DNA from: Cenococcum geophilum 1.58
Lineage: Eukaryota; Ascomycota; Dothideomycetes; Gloniales; Gloniaceae
Assembly: GCA_001692895.1 (NCBI GenBank)
Contig: KV748177.1
Location: forward strand, 3,162,001 to 3,226,000
Length of the DNA: 64,000 nucleotides
Direction: 5' to 3'
Shown piece by piece: positions 52,424 to 64,000 of the stretch. How positions within the stretch are numbered: the first letter of the stretch is position 1; every line of letters begins with the position of its first letter. Below the pieces are notes generated by a model, which was given only the letters and a program-made list of their open reading frames with translations, searched no databases and had not been told where the DNA came from. The position numbers and the translations under genes were made by a program.

Positions 52424-52899
52424 GCAGAGCTATCTTAAGGGTCTTATTAATAATAGAGATGACGCAGACAATAAATATTAATTAATTCGTGATATAGTAG
52501 ATGCGGTTAATGTCTATATAGATTATATACGGACTTCGTCCTCGCTTACCTCAGCGAGCTCAGACGCAATTTTTTAGCTAGTATTGGAATAACCTACGCC
52601 GTCTTCCAAATTGCAAAATCACGTCTGAGAGCGTTTGGCGCGTTTTGTTAAAATTATAACTAAAATTTACTAAGCGGACATTACGGATATCTAATTCATT
52701 CATTTATATAACGCGTTATTATTACCACATAAAGTCACATTTTTTTAAGACTTAGGGCTTCTAAATAGTATAAATTTTATTATACGGCTATTGCTTAGTC
52801 CTAATATTAATTTCGTTAAAGTTAAAAAACGCGTTGTTAAAATTATAAGCATATATTATATCTTATTAAATAATCTACTAATATAGATAAAACTATACA
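52424..52899. other. Intergenic RIPped DNA with a short inverted repeat
   Basis: There is no recognisable coding sequence. A 71-bp inverted repeat at 52559-52629 pairs CTCAGACGCAATTTT with AAAATCACGTCTGAG. It could be a hairpin or a very small fold-back element. The rest is AT-rich 5' flank of the helicase gene. No promoter could be identified with confidence. Confidence 0.45.
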
Positions 52900-53585
52900 G
52901 ATCTATAGATATCTACTACTTAAAGTTATTACAACACCTAGTAAATACTATAATTAGGTCCTTCCTTAAAAATATCCTTCCTTAGCCTAGAGTGCCTCCA
53001 CTACTACTAAACGCTATATCCGCATAGAAAACCCACTATAGCTTAGAAGAAAAACACTAGTTATTAGGGTCGGAAGACTATAGTTAAATGGGAACGCTAA
53101 TAAGTCTTACAGAGCTTATAGGAGCTGGATAATTATATATAGGAGAATCTTATATCCTTAGCAGAGAGGTAGTTATAGGATGTATAAGATAAGCTTCTAG
53201 CCTTATAAGAGGCAAGTAAAGATAAATAGTTAAGCTTAATAGATAGAGCTATTAAGCTTTTATATCCATATAGCGGATAACCTAGTTAAATTAAGGTATT
53301 AAGACGGGTAATATATGGGCGGAGGGACTTATTCCTAGCAGTAAAGACATTATAGGGTAAGAGTATAATAATACAGGCAATTCTATTACTAATTTAAGCT
53401 TCTGTTGCTATTATTATATTACCTTTAAACGTAATTAGAGAGGAGCAGCTATTAAAGATATAGGCTATCCTAGGAGTAAATCTCGTATTTATATATACGG
53501 AGGTAATAAAAGTGTATGCGGATATCCTAAAACATATTAAAGTAGGTCGGTTTACGTATATTCTAGTATCGCTAGAGTTACTATT

Positions 53586-53828
53586 GTGGTGGTGTAGATT
53601 GGACGTCGCCTACTATCTTGGCATTTTCCTATATTTATACAGCCTTCGGCTTCCTTCCTTCTTCCCTCTATCATATATATCACGACTCTACCAGTTACCG
53701 GAAATACACTCTTTTCTTTCTTTCTTACTGACTGTTCTACTGACTGATTACGACCGACCGACCGACCGACACCAGACAGACAGACAGCACTGTGACTTTC
53801 CCATCTTAGAGAGGTCGTACCCTCCCAC
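53586..53828. mobile_element. 243-bp unmutated insertion in the RecQ gene
   Basis: The 6-bp direct repeat ACTATT flanks it (53580-53585, 53829-53834), and removing one copy restores the helicase frame exactly. The ends are imperfect inverted repeats starting GTGG (GTGGTGGTGTAG against GTGGGAGGGTAC). Base composition is balanced, without the TpA bias around it. It contains (GACC)n and (CAGA)n microsatellites near 53750-53790. It may be a small nonautonomous DNA transposon. Captured filler DNA is the alternative. Open frames across it on both strands are fortuitous. Confidence 0.7.
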
Positions 53829-54242
53829 ACTATTAAGTAAACGGTTCTACTATATCCTTACTTAGCCCGCTTTTCGCTTACATATTTCCTTAGTTATAAT
53901 TAATAAGTACTATTTAGTTGCTAACTAGGGTAAGAGCTTCCGGCCCTATTATGTATAGCTCTTTAAGGTCTAATTACTACTTAGTCTAATAATACTATAG
54001 TTTATATATACTATAATACTTAATAAGGAGATATATGTAAAGGTAATAAAGCTAGTAGGGTTTTATTAGAGTATAACAGATCTTAAATAAACGGATATTA
54101 ATTGGCCTAACTTATCCATTATTAGGGGCTATATTAAAAGGAGGGATAAGAACAATTATAAGGCACTATTCTTTATTATTAAAGAGGCATTTAAGAAGGC
54201 GGTAGTAGAGGAGGATTATATATCTATAACCCTTAGCTAAAT

Positions 54243-54345
54243 ATCCGCAGGGTCCAGTAAAATATCCGCATTATTTAGCTAAACGCCCGCAGCGCCTAGT
54301 AGGATATCCGTATCTTCTAGTTAAATATCCACTACCTCTATTTAT
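54243..54345 (+). repeat. Short in-frame repeats in the RecQ inter-domain linker
   Basis: There are four degenerate units of about 27 bp with the core AATATCCGCA or GATATCCGTA followed by a CCTAGTA/TCTAGTT-type tail. They encode a Ser/Pro/Ala-rich linker (Ile-Ser-x-x-Ser-Ser-x) between the two helicase domains. Confidence 0.6.
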
Positions 54346-55600
54346 TAATTAGTCGGGCGGATCTAAAATCTAGTAGGAGGTACTATATAGCTAAAGGGAC
54401 GAAAGGTTCTAAGTCCCAAATTAATTTCTAAGATAATTATCTTTCTTTATACTAAAAATTATATCCGTGGGTGTATAAATACTATTTATTTATAGCTTAT
54501 AACTAAGGGCTATACTATTAAGTAGGCTAAAATAGCAGTGCGGAGTTATTATATAACATTATCCGAATATAATAAGAGTAGGGAATATCGAAATTTCTAT
54601 ATAGAAGACTTACCTACCTATATTCTTATTACATTGGACGCCCTAGCCTATAGTACGGATATTCTAGATATTATCCGTTCTATTATATATAGTTATTATT
54701 CTAATAAAAGCCTAAATATAATACTACAGCGATTTGGACAGGCCGCTTAACGTAATAGTATTACTAAATATATAATTATCCTTATTAAAGACTAGTATAA
54801 GGGCGCTCTTATAGATATTATACCGCTAAAGCAAAAGTCTTAAAAACTTATAGCCCCTTTATCTACCCGACTTGGCCGTAACTTTATTACTACTAAAATA
54901 GCGATATAAAAGGATAAGGTAGCGGATTTCGCTAGCGATCTAGCTTTATTTATTATAATTAATAGTAATATTATCTTATAGGTATCTGCTTAGGAGGAGG
55001 AGAATTAAATACTTAATAAGAATATAATATTATTAGCCCTACTAATTAAGTATATAAAAAAATAGAAGAGGGTAAAGACTAATATAGAGAAATAGGCGGT
55101 ACTTCTAGATATATTATACAAGCTTGTAAATAAAGCTACTAGATGCCTACGCAATATTCTACTTAAGCTGTATAAGGAAACAAGTCCGTTATTTAGAGGT
55201 CCACGCTGTTATTTTAATTACGATAATTCGTTATAGGCTTATAAGGAGTATAATATTATTATACTATATACTAAGAATATTATAAAGAGCAAGTACTTAA
55301 AGGATCTATTTATAAGTGTTAAGAAGTAGATTAAAGGATAGCTTAATATAATATACTAGTATGCAGTTTAGAGTCTAATTTCCAGTTATATTATATCCGA
55401 TAATTAAATCCGCATGCTCTATATCTAACCTCCGCTAACTTATAAGGGCCTTAAGCAGATATAACCTAAATAGAATTACAGCTTTTTAGGAGATAAAGTA
55501 GACGCGCTTATCCGCTTTATTTGTAAGGAAGAAACGTAATACTCTAGTACTAGTGTTTTATAGGTTGCGTCGCAATCTAGTAGACGTATTGTTATATCTA

Positions 55601-56429
55601 GAAGCTTATTATAGACGCCTCTACTATTAGCGGGTTAATAGGGACCTGTTAGTATATTAGCTATAAGGAGTACTAGCTCTAATTAACTGTTATAAACCAA
55701 AGTATTACTACCCTTATAGCTATTATTAGCATCTAGCTCATAAACGGATATAACTAAATTTTAAATATCTTAGCTTATATTAACCTAAGACTTATAGGCG
55801 AACTAGTCCCAGACTATATATACTACTCTATTATAGTCATCTTAATAACTGGATGTTTAATATCCATATACTTTAGATACACGGCTACCCGCTTAAAAAT
55901 CGTCTAGTATATATCCGTAGTACCCTTAACTTAGCCTTCGGCATCCTAATAACTCCCTACAGCGCCTCTATTATTCTTAATAGCTTCTTAATATAGCTTC
56001 TTATAATTCTCTACTACCTTAGTTTATATCTCAAAACAACCTAGGTATTAGTCTGTAATGTAGCCTTTAAGCTCTATAGTAGAAGTCCAATAGTATTATT
56101 AGCTCAAATATAGGTGGCGCTAGTTTATAGCGTAGTATTTAATCTCTATAGTAATCTCCACGTGCGGTTATTACAAATTAACGTAGCCTTATTAATAATC
56201 CTACTAGCAATAGTTTATTATCGGTAGCAATCTACAGCAATCTAGTATTAATGGCAACGGTAAACTACTGTATTATAGTACCCTTTATAGCAACTTAGCA
56301 GTAGGATACTAGAAGGGAATTAGCCTATATAGCGGGTGTGGACAGATATCTACAAGGTTAGTATAGTGGTTTAGTAGCTTATCTATTAACCCAAGCTCGT
56401 CGCTTATAGCGGCTTTTAAATAGTTCGTC
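55601..56429. other. Unassigned RIPped DNA downstream of RecQ
   Basis: The first 150 bases could be a disordered Ser/Gln-rich tail of the helicase frame. Further right, long minus-strand stretches (about 55900-56400) have moderate stop density and could extend the repeat-bearing gene at 56430-57790. I recognise no domain. A tRNA-like A-box string near 56360 has no matching B-box. Confidence 0.35.
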
Positions 56430-57790
56430 CGATTAATTATATATTAGTACTTAATAACCGTATACTTTACCTAGTAGCTTGCTAATACGGTTAAGAAGCT
56501 TATTCTAATACGTAGACTTATGGGCTAATGTATTAGCTACTATAGAGTTAGCTCCCTTTTAGCCGGTAGAATTAACTAAAGGTAAATCTAGCACTTTCTA
56601 CCGCTCTACTTAAGTAAGAAGTACTACCTCTACTTATATAGCTAGTGTTAATACAACTCTAAGCCAGTCTCTTTAGCCAATTCTCCTCTCTAGTACTATA
56701 TTAGCTAGCAGTATAACCTTAAAAAGGACATAGAGACGTCTATTTACTAATATTAGTGGCAATATAAGTATAAATAGGCCGCAGCTAAAGCGCTGGATAT
56801 TAGATCTTATAGCGTAGTATTAAGTCTTAGCCCTTAGAGCAATCTAGATATTAAAGCTTTTAGTATAGTATTAAATCTAAATTTATAGGGCAGCCTAAGT
56901 ATTAGAGCTTATAGTGTAACACTAAGTCTTAACTTTTAGATAAGCTTAAGGTTTAATATTCGCAATATAACACCGGATCTCCGACCATAAAAAATTCTAA
57001 AGTTTAATATTAGCGGCGTACCACTAGTTCCTAAATAGTAGGAAATCCGGAAATTTAGAGTTTATAACGTAGTATTAGATCTCCGCTTCTAGAAAATCCT
57101 AAAGCTTAGGATTTAAGTTATAATACTAGATCTCCGCTTCTAGGGAACTCTTAAGGCTTAGGGTTTATAGGCTAATGCTTAATATTTGCCTTCTAAATTG
57201 GGTGCGGCTTAGAATTTACAGCTTAATATTTAATCTCCGCTCTTTAAACCAAGTATAGCTTAGAACCTACAGCCTAGTGCTTAATCTCCGCCCTTAGGTT
57301 TAGATGTAATGCAGCTTTATAGGTTAGTATTTAATATTCCTTAGCGTTTTACTTATTTGTTAACTTAACTAAAACTAGGGCAGAGCTCTAATTAATATCT
57401 AAATATTAAGTGTCGATCTCCGTATACGTATTTAAATAGTCTATTAAATTCTTATTTAGAGAAATACTAAGGTTTATACCTAAAGCTCCTAAAACCCGCA
57501 GAACCTATATTATATTAGCTATTTAGTTTAAGTGTCTTATAATTCTCTTAATTAGATATTATCCGTTCTTCTTAGGCTACTATACCTTAAGCCTCTTAGC
57601 TAATATTAGATCTGCCTTATAGTAAGAGAAAACAAAATAATATATCTACGCACTTTAAAAGGGAGAAATCCGCTTACTAAGTAAACCTAATATTTACTTA
57701 TAACCCTTCTCTAGCACCTTAGCTAAGCGGTAATTCTATATTAATACCATTTCGCAAGTTAACTAGACGGCGCCCACTTACTTTAATTAG
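56430..57790 (-). pseudogene. Unrecognised protein with 17-residue repeats, RIP-mutated
   Basis: The minus strand keeps one frame across a tandem array (56795-57345) whose period is 51 bp, or 17 codons. Units look like Asp-Leu-Ile-Leu-Arg-Tyr-Lys-Leu-Gln followed by a variable Gly/Ser/Pro tail. About ten units are in phase. Upstream (to about 57790) the strand reads as helical Leu/Ile-rich sequence, and downstream (to about 56430) as mixed polar sequence. Both are interrupted mainly by Gln/Trp-type stops. No family is recognised. The gene ends are estimates. It lies convergent with RecQ. Confidence 0.4.
56795..57345 (-). repeat. 51-bp coding minisatellite, about ten units
   Basis: Units contain GATCTCCGCTTCTAG or its variants followed by AAGCTTAG and ATTTATAGC (plus-strand view). 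Spacing is 51 bp in most units, with one of 54 bp. Unit divergence is high, so the array is old. The fixed multiple of three argues that the array was translated. Confidence 0.75.
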
Positions 57791-57844
57791 TAGTAACTTA
57801 ATTATAAAGGATTTACGCGTTACAAATAAGCGTATATAAGGTAG

Positions 57845-59741
57845 TTAATATTTACTAAGGTAAATTACTATAACAGTAATTATTTGTTAGTAAGCTAATT
57901 TAATAAAATCTTAGCGCGGATATTTACCTTTAATTAATCTCCGCACCTTTTCTTCTACTAACCTTCTACCTTATAACAACGCACCGCAAACTTTATTATT
58001 ATTATTTTATCTACTATTAATTAGGATACTACTATCTATAATACCTTTTTTTATACCTTTAAATACGTCTAATAGCTATTTAGTTAAGGAACTTAATACG
58101 TGTAATATTAACGATAAAATAATTAAGAACGCTTTTAAGAACGCTCTTTCTTTTACTAATCCTTTAGAATTTCTACCTAAAAAGTAAGCTTTCTAATACT
58201 AAATTATGCCTGCAGCTAATATAATTTTAGGAAATATATACTAAAGCACTCTTTGTTAAATGTAGTAGAGCACTATAATAAGGTTATTGCGAAATCCGCT
58301 AAAAATCCGCTTACCTCTTTACTGCTTACCTCTTTACCGCCTACTTTTTTACCGCTTGCCTTTTTATTGCCTACCTTTAAGCTACCTATTTCTTTATCGC
58401 CTGCTACTTTTAAAAAGTTTAATCCTTGTTATACTTCTACTTCTCTTAAGAGACAGGCTAATAAAATTGCTATATAAAATGTTTAGTATAAGATAGCCTT
58501 TAAATCGTATATATTAGCTATACTCTTTTAGTATCTTATCTACTAATTTACCTCTTATAGTAACCTAATAGAAATATTAGAGATTTTAAATAACGATAAA
58601 GAGATTAATCTTAATAATGCCTACTCTCCTAAAAGCCCTCCTTTATCCTCTTATAATCTCCGTAGCCCTTATAAGCTCTATAGTATATAAATGGCCTAAG
58701 CTATAACGTTGGATATTAATATAAACAAGCGCCTTTCTATTTAAGTACTGTTAGTAAATAAATAGTATACCCTAGAAGCTAGTGCTTGGGAGAATATAAA
58801 AAAAGCTCGCTAGCGGATATATACCTATATCTAGAATATTAAGGGTAGCTTTAGTATACTATATAATCCGCTATACGCTCTATATATTAAGCAAGATTAT
58901 AAATATTGCGTTTATAAGCAGAACTCTAGGCCATATTTTAGAGGTGCGTACTTAAGATATCGCTTAAGTAGCAGGTTATATAAAAAGGTATATACTAATA
59001 GTATACTACTATTCTATCAGCTAATATATATATAGGATAATTTACTAAAACTAGAGCCGGTTATACCTTAGCGTAAAAAACATACGCAATTAGCTTCTGC
59101 TAGTAGTCCGGCTAAAACACCTACTAAGAAAGTATAATATCCGCATCTTAATAATATAGATATTGCTAATATCCGCATAGCTTTATACCTATACTATCCC
59201 CCCTTTAAAGACCTCCCCTCCCCCTAAGACTCCTACTTATAGTGATATACGTAGCCGTAGAGGCACCTATTCTACTACTGCTCCTTCTACTCTTTTACTA
59301 ATTCCTAGCACGCATAGTACTACCTCTAGTACTACTGCCGCTCCTACTACTACAGAAAATATTAGAGCGTATTTAGCAATTACTATTTCCGCGCGCGTTA
59401 ATATAGTTTATAAATGGGTAACTAAGATAGCGAAAGATACTTAAGCTATAAATTGCCGGTTAAGTAAGCTTAAAGATTCTCTAAGTAAAATTAAGGATAA
59501 ACTTGCGTTTATAAGGCGTAGTATTACTACACTTATACGCAACGCTAGGTTGCCGGATATAGAATTTAAGTAGATATAGGTTGGCTGTTATTATGGGTTT
59601 AGAGTAATAAAATAGTAGCTCTTACCTCTCTGCTACTGCGTATATAAGAATTAAGTCTTTGCCTTATATTTAATAGATATACTTAATTAATATTATAATA
59701 TCCGTATAAGCTAAGATAGAGATATTTATATATCTACACTA
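57845..59741 (+). pseudogene. Tandem-duplicated gene unit 1, Zn2Cys6-like protein
   Basis: This is the first of two direct repeats of about 1.9 kb. From about 58020 the plus frame reads Val-Lys-Glu-Leu-Asn, then a conserved Gln-Ala-Phe-Gln-Tyr-Gln-Ile-Met-Pro and Asn-Ile-Ile-Leu-Gly-Asn-Ile-Tyr. A Leu/Pro-rich stretch (58290-58400) and Ala-Phe-Lys-Ser-Tyr follow. A cysteine cluster lies near 58865-58985, in which most Cys codons now read Tyr (G-to-A). The C-terminal half carries Pro-Ala-Lys-Thr-Pro and Ser/Thr-rich sequence. Family unrecognised. The 74- and 69-codon open stretches at 58253-58496 are fragments of it or its shadow. Confidence 0.5.
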
Positions 59742-61711
59742 TTAATGTTTACTAAGGTAAGTCACCATAGCAGTAATTATTTGTTAGTAAGCTAATTTAA
59801 TAAAATTGGTAGCGTGGATATTTACTTTTAGTTAACCTCTATACCTCTTCTTTCTCTACTAACCTTCTACCTTACAGCACCGCACCGTAAACTTTATTAT
59901 TATTATTTTATATACTGTCCTTTAGAATACTACTATCTATAATACCTATATTTATATCTATAAACGATATTAATGCGAATAATAGCAACTAGGCGGTTAA
60001 GGAACTTAATATACGCGACGTTAATAATAAGGAGTTTAATACTATTAAGCACGCTATAGCTGCTCTTACTAAGCCTTTAAATTCTATTCTTAAAGAGTAA
60101 GCTTTTTAATACTAAATTATGCCTATAGCTAATATAATTTTAGGAAATATATACTAAAGCGCTCTTTATAAGGTTTAGTAGACGATAATAATAAAAATAA
60201 AGTGAAATCCGCTAAAAACCCGCTTACCTTTTTACTAAATACCTTTCCGCTGCCTATATCTTTACTATAGGCTACTTTACTATCTACTACTTTACTACCT
60301 ACCTCCCTACTACCGCTGCCTAATGTTTTTAAAAAGAGGCTTAACAAGGCTCGTTTATCTTCTTTTCTTAAAAAGCGGGCTAAAAAGGCTGCTAATATAA
60401 ATATAAAGCTTAAGATAGCTATTAAATCGTATATATTAGTTATATTATTTTAGCGTCTTATCTATTAATTTACCTCTTATAGTAACCTAAACACTATATA
60501 TAAGGTTCCTTTGGATAGCGAATCTTTAAACAGCAATAAAGATTAAGACCTTAATAACGCTAACTTTTATAATCTCCGCAGCCCTTACAATCTTCGCAGC
60601 CCTTATAATCTCCGCAGCCCTTATAATCTCCGCAGTACTCCTAATATAAATAAGCGCCTTCCTATCTAAGTGCTGTTAGTAAATAAATAGTACACTCTAA
60701 AAGCTAATATTTGGGAAAGTATAAAGGAAAGTCGCTAGTGGATATTGATATACGTTTAGAATATTAAGGGTAGCTTTAATAAGCTACGTAATCCGCTATG
60801 CGCTCTATGCAAAAAGCATAGCTATAAATGTTGCGTTTACAAGCAGAACTCTAAGCCTCATTTTAGAGGTATATACTTAAGATATTATTTTAGTAGTAGG
60901 TCATGCAGAACGGTATGCGCTAATAGTATACTATTATTCTATTAGCTAACATATATATAGGAAAGCTTACTAAATCTAAAGCCGGTTATACCTTAGCGCA
61001 AAAAACATGCGTAATTAGCTTCTACCAGTAGTCTAGCTAGAACACCTACTAAGAAAGTATAATATCCGTACCTTAATAATATAAATATTGCTAATATCCG
61101 TATAGCTTTATACTCACACTATCCCCGCCCGCGCCACTACGTCTTTTCCCCCCACTAAGACCTCCCCCCCTATTAAGACTCCTACTTATAGTAGTACGCG
61201 CGGCTATAAAGGCACCCGCTCTACCGCTACTCCTCTACCTCTTTTCCCAATTACTAGCACGCTAGGTACTACTGTTACTACTACCACTTCTACTAGCACA
61301 GAATCTATTAGGGTGTATTTAGCAATTAGTATTTCTATATATATTAATATAGTTCGTAAATAGGTAACTAATATAGCGAAAGATATTCAAGCTATAGATC
61401 GCTAGTTAAATAAGTTTAGAGATTCTCTAAGTAAGATAAAGGATGAGCTTATGTTCTTAAGGCGTAGTATTATTATACTTATACGCAATACTAGGCTACT
61501 GGATATTAAATAAGTAGATATAAGTTGGCTGTTATTGCGGGTTTATAATAATAAAATAGTAGCTTTTACCTTTTTGCTACTATATATATAGGAATTAAGT
61601 CTCCGCCTTATATTTAATAGATATACTTAATTAATATTATAATATCTATATAAGCTAAGGTAAAGATATCCGTATAAGCTAAAATAAAGATATTTATATA
61701 TCTACACTATA
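59742..61711 (+). pseudogene. Tandem-duplicated gene unit 2, Zn2Cys6-like protein
   Basis: This is the second copy, colinear with 57845-59741 and differing mostly by transitions plus small indels. The cysteine cluster is better kept here (about 60797-60930). Cys-x2-Cys, six residues, Cys-Cys, then about 14 residues with Lys-Pro-His-Phe-Arg-Gly, then two positions that read Tyr in place of Cys, then Ser-Ser-Arg-Ser-Cys. The spacing resembles a fungal Zn2Cys6 binuclear cluster with an extended loop. DNA binding is inference. A partial repeat of AAGCTAAGATAAAGATAT at 61650-61700 lengthens the 3' end. Confidence 0.5.
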
Positions 61712-64000
61712 AAACGGCTAACTGCTACGTTATATACTACGCATTAAGAAAATTATACGCCGGCCAGATTTAATATTAATAAAAAGAACTTGCTTAATAT
61801 ATTAAGACGGAAACGTACCATAAGCCCTAGTATTTAAAAGTCTTCCGGTATATTATCTATATCCTTATTAAATCCGTCCTTATAAGGGTTATATAGTAAA
61901 CCGCTAATATAAGATATCTGTATATTAAAATTAGCAATACTACCCTATAAGAGCCGCTCTAATCTAAGTTAAAAAATAGTAGGTACCTTAAACCTAATAT
62001 CCTATACATGCTAACGCATAATAGAAGTATATCTGTAATTAAAATAATACATTACTATTACTCTTAGTATTTATTAAGTAAGTTATACACTAACTATTAT
62101 ATATATTTATAGAGGTATAGGTGTAATATTAGGACAATAAACTATATAAATATATTTAATAGCTTCTCCTAGTACCTCTATATTCTTATTAGCATTACTA
62201 AAGCTATATATAAGGGGATCAAATAGTAAACCGGCTGCAGTTAATAGAAAGGCGTTAAATATATTTACGCCGTCCTTTGTAAGTTTCTTATATCCACGCT
62301 ATAGAAGTAAAGGAGCCTTAAAATCTATTAAGCGCCGCCTATATTGCACGATTAAATCCTTTCTAATCTAATCTATAAGATAGCGGATATCTAGCGCTAA
62401 AGACTTAGTTATATATTCACTGTTTATATATTCGCTAAATATACGCTTAAAAATATCGCGGAGCGCGCTAGTGTAACTTATTATAAGAACACTCTATTTA
62501 AATAGCTCGTCTATACTAAACTTCAAATTCCCACACATTTAGAGCAACTCCTTAAGTTAAAGATTTAGCAGTTTATTAAGGCGATCCGTCTTAAAGAAGC
62601 TATCTAGCCGCCCTTAAAGGTTAACTAAACTATTAGTAAGGATAGCCCGTTAAAGCATTAAATTATAAGTATTTATTCTAACTAGTTGCTATAAAATTAG
62701 TATATTGTATATATAGTTCTTTAATAAGCTTTTAGCGAAGTATAAGTAAAGGCGGGGGATTATACGCTTTAGTAGTCCGATATCTATATACTTAATGGCG
62801 TATTTTAAAAGCTTATAAATATTAATAACCTATAAAAACCGGATATAATTAAAGAACTCTATATTATGATTATTAGCGGCAAAGCTTAACATACCTATAG
62901 AGGACGACGTTACTGCTAGCTAACGTGCATTAGTAGGTGGCTTTAAATAATTAAACGTGCGTTAATTTACATCGCGGTATATATCTCTTAAAAAAGCCAC
63001 TGTGCGGATATCCTTAATATGCTCTAAAAATTGCTGCGGAGATAGGTTTTGTATATATTGCTTAGCCTTACTACCTACCTTAATGTTGCACTTATTATAG
63101 ATATAAAGTAGGAATAATGTAATAATATAAGCGTTAAAGCTTTAGAGGATTAGCTCTTCCATATAATAAAATAGGGCTTTTTCCCTAGAAATACTGCGCC
63201 GTCCTAAGTAGTTTATATAGGCGTAAAGCGCTAAAAACTGCTATGCGGCTTCCTTACCCCTATAGAACGTACGTATAACTATATATAGGAAGTTTAATTA
63301 TATATACTATAGCCCTAGAATAGGCAACACTTACTTATAGCTATTATACGCACCTTCCGCCTTAACCCGCTCCTCTTTATATAATTAAATAAGCTTTACG
63401 GTTTTCTAATCTCCGTATATTAGGAAAAGCCAATTATTAAAAGCGGTTTTATAATTATACTGCAGTTGTTCTAGGAAGATATTCTTTATTACGCAATAGT
63501 TGCTATTAATAAAAGCTTCGCTATATAGAATAGGTCCTAGAGTTATATACTCTGTCCTTTTATAAGGGAGAATATTAACTACTAGTATATGCGGATATTT
63601 AATATCCACGTTAAAGTTAAATATACTATTAAATGGCGTCCGTAATAAAACTTATAGATATCTGCTTTTAAAGGTCATTAAACCTATTCCTAGCTGCATT
63701 AATAACCTTATTTAGCTTAAGTTAATAGGTGTTGTTTAGCATTAACTGCTTAAGGCCCCCTTTAGGCATGCAAACTCCGCGTAAAATCTTTCCCGTAGTA
63801 TGCGAATTAAACTTACTAATCTTACCGATAACCTAATATTAAGTCTTTTAGCAATAGTTAAAGTTATTATAGATAATATAGATATTATTATAAATAGATA
63901 GAGACTTAATTAGTTTCTTAAGGGTTATTAGCGCTAGAAGAGCTATTAGAATTAATAGAACTTTTCTTAAAATATTTAGCTAGCCCAAGCTTTTTAGCGT
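61712..64000 (-). pseudogene. DUF6589-type protein gene, RIP-mutated, N-terminus beyond window
   Basis: The minus strand from 64000 to about 62150 follows the DUF6589 pattern. Ile-Tyr-Asn-Asn-Phe-Asn lies near 63850 (family: Tyr-Asp-Asn-Phe). Thr-Thr-Gly-Lys-Ile-Leu-x-Gly with Pro-x-Gly-Gly-Leu lies near 63770, and a hydrophobic Trp/Leu-Pro-Ile-x-Gly-Leu segment near 63320. Ile-Lys-Tyr-x-Asp-Ile-Gly lies near 62790, and Leu-x-Asn-Ser-Leu-Val-Asn-Leu-x-Gly with Asp-Arg-Leu-Asn-x-Leu-Leu-Asn-Leu near 62600. Stops are sparse, mostly at Gln codons. Below 62150 the frame is uncertain. The family's function is unknown to me; it is often found in repeat-rich fungal DNA. Confidence 0.75.

Follow-up and report, generated by a model that had tools for sequence, protein, structure and literature searches.

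The DNA analysed here, called the window, is a stretch of 64,000 nucleotides from Cenococcum geophilum 1.58 (contig KV748177.1, positions 3,162,001 to 3,226,000, here C2:3162001-3226000; C-numbers label the 162 contigs of the 177.2 Mb genome). A block at its right end, containing a RecQ helicase gene and a gene of the DUF6589 family, is probably a copy, inactivated by repeat-induced point mutation (RIP), of a DNA transposon of about 12.1 kb with 20-bp inverted ends and a 9-bp target duplication, in which the DUF6589 protein would serve as transposase and RecQ as helper. A first-pass annotation had proposed a mobile unit larger than 11.6 kb or, alternatively, a subtelomeric repeat. The mobile unit was borne out, since gene order recurs, the ends are sharp, 9-bp target duplications flank the unit and two empty sites were found. 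The features in the window are as follows.

52537-52545, no strand: left copy of the 9-bp target duplication, CGTCCTCGC; the right copy lies past 65092, beyond the window.
52546-64000, plus strand: window part of the transposon; the unit runs to about 65092, and six other copies have the same limits.
52546-52565, plus strand: left terminal inverted repeat, TTACCTCAGCGAGCTCAGAC, 20 bp, with its inverse at the right end.
53230-55293, plus strand: RecQ helicase gene, RIP-mutated; outer limits of the tblastn pieces obtained with the protein of a sister family, with which less mutated copies concur.
53586-53829, no strand: insertion of about 245 bp inside the helicase gene, absent from all six other copies compared.
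56750-57340, plus strand: tract of 17-residue (51-bp) repeats; self-match 0.526 at lag 51 versus 0.22-0.30 at lags 48-50 and 52-54.
58547-59023 (C2:3220547-3221023), plus strand: Zn2Cys6-like protein, copy 1, matched piece; repeat unit 57844-59725.
60469-60951 (C2:3222469-3222951), plus strand: Zn2Cys6-like protein, copy 2, matched piece; repeat unit 59742-61700.
62212-64000, minus strand: DUF6589 gene, the proposed transposase; domain at 62437-63618 (E 1.9e-32 to PF20231), with homology extending to 64619 outside the window.

Just three frames of at least 100 amino acids were present between 50000 and 64000. When the block was used as a DNA query, long collinear pieces were matched on other contigs, and three of these matches started at query base 546-547. 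We fetched 188 kb at five places and compared the window copy with six other copies (C124, C1b, two on C25 and two on C8). These share the limits of the element, their matches starting at window positions 52542-52546 and stopping at 65092-65098. The unit therefore starts at 52546 and not at 52424, where the first-pass annotation had begun the block, and it runs about 1,092 bp past the window end. Base-by-base reading placed the inverted terminal repeats at a constant boundary in 7/7 copies, all of which fit a 9-bp duplication. With up to 2 mismatches the end repeat TTACCTCAGCGAGCTCAGAC was found at 645 places in the genome, the control at 0. Copy lengths were approximately 12.08-12.09 kb for C124, C1b and both C25 copies, 11.2 kb for both C8 copies, which are without about 1.2 kb, and 12.5 kb for the window copy. 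The two C8 copies align without a break across a segment of about 290 bp (57542-57833) that C124, C1b and the C25 pair lack. The insert in the helicase gene is bounded by TGTGG...CCACA and holds short GACC/GACA runs.

The target duplication measured 9 bp over the seven copies. It was exact in three of them (window, CGTCCTCGC; C124, ATGGTCGCC; C1b, TGCGAGGTC) and showed C/T and A/G differences alone in the two C8 copies (plus strand, GAGGATCGT/GAGGATTGT; minus strand, AGCACTACG/AGTACTGCG). The remaining two copies lie tail to tail at C25:235078-269400 and have swapped duplications (TATCGACTA/GTCTAGTAC and GTCTGGTAC/CATCGACTA), an outcome expected of inversion through recombination between inverted copies, which we infer to have taken place; a 5,434-base run of N separates the two copies, the exchanged flanks themselves being directly read. 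Furthermore, when the flanks of the window copy and of C1b were joined with one 9-bp copy, they matched uninterrupted sister repeats across the junction with 82-86% identity, as expected of empty sites. The fetched DNA yielded no empty site for the other five copies; in this comparison the flank bounds for two minus-strand copies were off by 1-3 bases. The window copy (52537-52545) and the C1 copy (C1:2007448-2019540) are inserted in one repeat family in opposite orientation, at points that agree to about 1 bp (duplications CGTCCTCGC and TGCGAGGTC). This shared insertion point suggests a target preference.

A chance cluster or nest of independent repeats is hardly credible as an account of the block. 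The region is indeed repeat-dense and the flanks of the copies match other repeats, but the same order, the same ends and the 9-bp duplications were found around the whole block. Independent families with no shared boundary, which the first-pass annotation had named as the outcome speaking against one element, are not what we observed.

RIP of the element copies is confirmed, since they differ almost solely by transitions. TA/AT was 1.60 and (CA+TG)/(AC+GT) 0.43 in the window copy versus 0.99 and 1.22 in a stop-free relative. The ratio of transitions to transversions was 1084:0 for the C25 pair, 960:2 for the C8 pair and 1032:3 for C124 against C1b, so the closest copy pairs were nearly identical before RIP. 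The window copy differed from the six others by 1273-1455 transitions and 123-133 transversions. The two C8 copies lie tail to tail (C8:3089033-3089058), with right ends 24 bp apart, a distance made up of the two 9-bp duplications and 6 bp. Given this spacing and the scarcity of transversions between them, one C8 copy may be a local hop of the other.

All four gene families that the first-pass annotation had described as RIP-mutated are present in the block, as protein and DNA matches and the 51-bp periodicity attest. RecQ is followed by the 17-residue-repeat protein and two Zn2Cys6-like proteins, and DUF6589 is convergent to them. The RecQ protein of the stop-free relative matched the window at 53230-53586 (E 6e-17), 53821-54189 (E 1e-11) and 54418-55293 (E 3.4e-26). 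Pfam scanning of the window RecQ region in six frames, with stops as X, returned 0 families, the region being too decayed. The sister RecQ protein was recognised as recQ_fam (E 3.7e-30) and DEAD (E 5.8e-12) and matched a solved RecQ structure (E 5.4e-19), and the helicase of the C124 copy matched RecQ5 at E 1.1e-7; by Pfam the helicase is of the DEAD/Helicase_C type. Sub-threshold Pfam matches to Img2, Mg_chelatase, RecQ_Zn_bind and Lentiviral_Tat were not used. The DUF6589 domain was detected at E 3.1e-68 in the sister protein, 3.5e-42 in C124 and 1.9e-32 in the window.

The duplicated Cys-cluster gene stood as a pair, each unit matching the opposite unit of other copies with 72-75% DNA identity, and its full identification as Zn2Cys6 did not. 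The pattern CX2CX6C...CX2CX6C is complete in a copy on C75 and partly mutated in the window. The C75 gene reads CALCEKxGHxCRVYKKDSGPHFGGACSRCRVGGRSC, with CX2CX6C twice and Zn2Cys6 spacing with a long loop. The sole Pfam match of its protein was Zn_clus, under the cut-off (E 0.071, 13.7 bits versus 21), so 'Zn2Cys6-like' is a fair name and 'Zn2Cys6' is not established.

The recurrence of the block was assessed with 301-bp probes from the helicase, DUF6589 and the Cys gene, for each of which 40 places were listed, from 64, 90 and 185 candidates, respectively. DUF6589 lay downstream in the same orientation within 10 kb of 27, within 15 kb of 29 and within 45 kb of 33 of the 40 listed helicase loci, compared with a chance expectation at 15 kb of about 0.006 per locus. 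The search of the assembly for a recurring gene order that the first-pass annotation had called for thus turned out positive. Among the listed places, a Cys gene was found within 45 kb of 19/40 helicase loci, and five loci had neither DUF6589 nor a Cys gene. Conversely, 58 of 102 scored DUF6589 matches (of 274 candidates) had a convergent RecQ within 15 kb and 29 more had a Cys gene alone, counted against the best 85 Cys gene matches.

Probes for the left and right ends gave 379 and 363 candidates, exceeding every internal probe. After two partial left-end matches on C87 and one partial right-end match on C70 had been left out, comparison of 41 left and 41 right ends gave four pairs at most 20 kb apart. 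Two of these were full-size and two spanned 1.5 and 1.9 kb; we read the latter as short derivatives keeping the element ends. Neighbouring left ends at C38 and C87 were considered as fold-back forms and rejected as such, because the ends point apart, which indicates two side-by-side insertions. No relatives of DUF6589 were confirmed in viral and prokaryote contig collections.

The same genome holds a second family of about 6.4 kb with related ends and just two convergent genes, RecQ and DUF6589, of which stop-free copies exist. Its ends (TTGTCTCAGCATGCTCAGACCA on the RecQ side, TTGACTCAGCATGCTCAGACCA on the DUF6589 side) were found at 155 places versus 2 for the control. The 100 listed of these 155 places included 26 facing pairs at most 15 kb apart; six of them, each enclosing a RecQ match, are 6.39-6.44 kb long, and another 13 measure 0.98-1.61 kb. 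Flanks of four left and two right ends, read from separate insertions, did not match each other. Among 59 RecQ protein matches (58 of 413 candidates scored), eight were near-identical and stop-free and 50 carried stops; the remaining one, on C75, is stop-free and a more distant relative (48%). Likewise, seven stop-free DUF6589 matches belong to the sister family, the one on C88 being assigned by its distance from RecQ, and an eighth is that of the C75 copy. Sister copies are 99.95-99.98% identical across 4-5.7 kb.

The RecQ and DUF6589 proteins of the sister and window families share 28-42% identity and the same arrangement. What lies between the two genes sets the families apart: a 17-residue repeat tract and a Cys-gene pair in the window family, neither of them in the sister family. 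RecQ and DUF6589 are therefore the core common to both, and the repeat protein and the two Zn2Cys6-like proteins were gained or lost, with addition favoured. At C75:756301-765078, DUF6589, two Cys genes and RecQ occur in the window order without stops. The 601 bases read at C75:758640-759240 contain 18 N, so an intact C75 copy is not established, and the copy may be a mixed consensus of several copies and not one true copy. At C4:3985070-3997631, sister-family end repeats 12.6 kb apart flank two Cys-gene matches and a DUF6589 match; thus the Cys cargo may not be tied to window-family ends. At C3:2530296-2530347 and C14:1296022-1296073, a sister-family end repeat is followed exactly 32 bp later by a window-family end repeat, reflecting either the same nested insertion twice or one composite that moved.

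Subtelomeric RecQ repeats occur in Mycosphaerella graminicola and other fungi, and we regard it as very unlikely that the block is one of them. The RecQ is of the fungal type and the stop-free DUF6589 and RecQ frames of the sister family sit at contig ends: on C43 the RecQ frame and a 957-amino-acid DUF6589 frame converge, and C9 carries an 883-amino-acid RecQ frame with the left end. However, we read these contig ends as assembly breaks within recent copies, because four contigs (C9, C42, C74 and C149) match from the same contig base and C43 runs on into a gene, which we take to be that for serine palmitoyltransferase subunit 1. No doubled telomere unit was present in the two sister-copy stretches read (L038, L039). 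Moreover, 18 of the 40 listed helicase loci are on contigs of known length. The distance to the nearest contig end is 236 kb or more for 17 of them; the other lies on a 138-kb contig, 18.7 kb from its end. The suggested subtelomeric repeat was therefore not upheld. Exact (TTAGGG)4 occurs nowhere in the assembly, so these are distances to contig ends and not to telomeres. The portions of PMC4522978 consulted describe the subtelomeric RecQ helicase family of M. graminicola as tied to telomeres. It resembles the present one in consisting of low-GC RecQ copies in a fungus with RIP, and differs from it in that 17/18 measured loci are internal here. The stop-free sister copy on stretch L038 ends about 70 bp before the start of the putative serine palmitoyltransferase gene (L038 5735-6500), and may affect its promoter.

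DUF6589 is proposed as the transposase on the grounds that, apart from the helicase, no other long gene is conserved in both families and that the order of its acidic motifs would suit a DDE enzyme. The motifs are YDNFD (residues 368-372), GDQ (528-530) and MEE (612-614). The acids of GDQ and MEE are retained in 7/7 window-family copies; in all five copies aligned at YDNFD, both of its D residues are replaced by N, the RIP product. In the most likely mechanism, RecQ would open the element ends or aid repair of the donor site, and the Zn2Cys6-like proteins would bind element DNA. Several results weigh against this account. The motifs lack specificity, as the conservation filter that they pass lets through about 40 acidic positions. 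Comparison of DUF6589 with solved structures gave no significant match, either with a single sequence (chance-level E 0.11 and 0.19) or with a five-row profile (none), and the AlphaFold model of the window DUF6589 fragment had a mean confidence (pLDDT) of 33.6, was unusable and was not interpreted. In the lists used, 15 of the 102 DUF6589 matches had neither RecQ nor a Cys gene. Finally, the activity of the element is deduced from near-identical copies, and no movement was observed.

Among known transposons, Mutator-like elements make duplications of about 9 bp, similar in length to those found here. The present element, however, has a helicase, and Pfam scans of the window and of the C124 copy contained no Mutator-type transposase domain.

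On balance, the element may well be a true AcademH element, DUF6589 being the Academ DDD/E transposase; the mechanism would then be the same and its filing alone would differ. According to passages of PMC10045372, AcademH duplications are 9 or 10 bp and AcademX duplications 3 or 4 bp, a difference tied to helicase versus nuclease. In excerpts of PMC10799480, the helicase domains named for AcademH, KolobokH or Helitron elements are DEAD and Helicase_C. Both the 9-bp duplication and the DEAD/Helicase_C helicase were found here, a likeness to the AcademH of PMC10045372. Against this assignment, no text among the literature searched links DUF6589 to Academ. The 12-kb form also adds the repeat protein and the Zn2Cys6-like pair, with AcademH compared by its description in these excerpts alone. 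The term DUF6589 had no mention in the 5.39 million papers searched, which left most subscription papers and Repbase outside, and searches for KolobokH, AcademH, AcademX, and Academ with RecQ or helicase yielded no paper describing this element.

A KolobokH element, from the fungal Kolobok lineage with a RecQ helicase, is improbable. Parts of PMC9587614 describe KolobokH as a fungal DNA transposon with RecQ, a helicase also found here, and according to an excerpt of PMC10989895 a Cladobotryum element of about 10.5 kb carries two RecQ genes. However, the same parts of PMC9587614 give Kolobok duplications in general as 4-bp TTAA, whereas those observed here are 9 bp and none is TTAA. They also list the C/DxxH motif as common to Kolobok and four other superfamilies. 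If our motif assignment holds, C/DxxH was not found after YDNFD in the 957-amino-acid sister DUF6589, its sole match being at residue 265, before YDNFD. The duplication length excludes standard Kolobok and fits AcademH. We put forward only tentatively, as the less probable outcome, that DUF6589 is an undescribed class of DNA transposase that, with its constant RecQ partner, defines its own fungal superfamily with 9-bp duplications, distinct from Academ and Kolobok and comprising 6.4-kb members and 12-kb members with gained DNA-binding cargo.

DUF6589 is a Pfam family of unknown function. Here, the order of the genes, the common ends and the two-gene sister family link it to a DNA transposon that has a helicase and a duplication of measured length. 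It thereby gains a testable role as transposase, and annotators gain a way to recognise such elements. The constant helicase partner bears on why helicase-encoding elements make long duplications. Moreover, a single genome holds near-identical stop-free sister copies as well as dozens that RIP has mutated, which allows recent spread to be compared with RIP defence.

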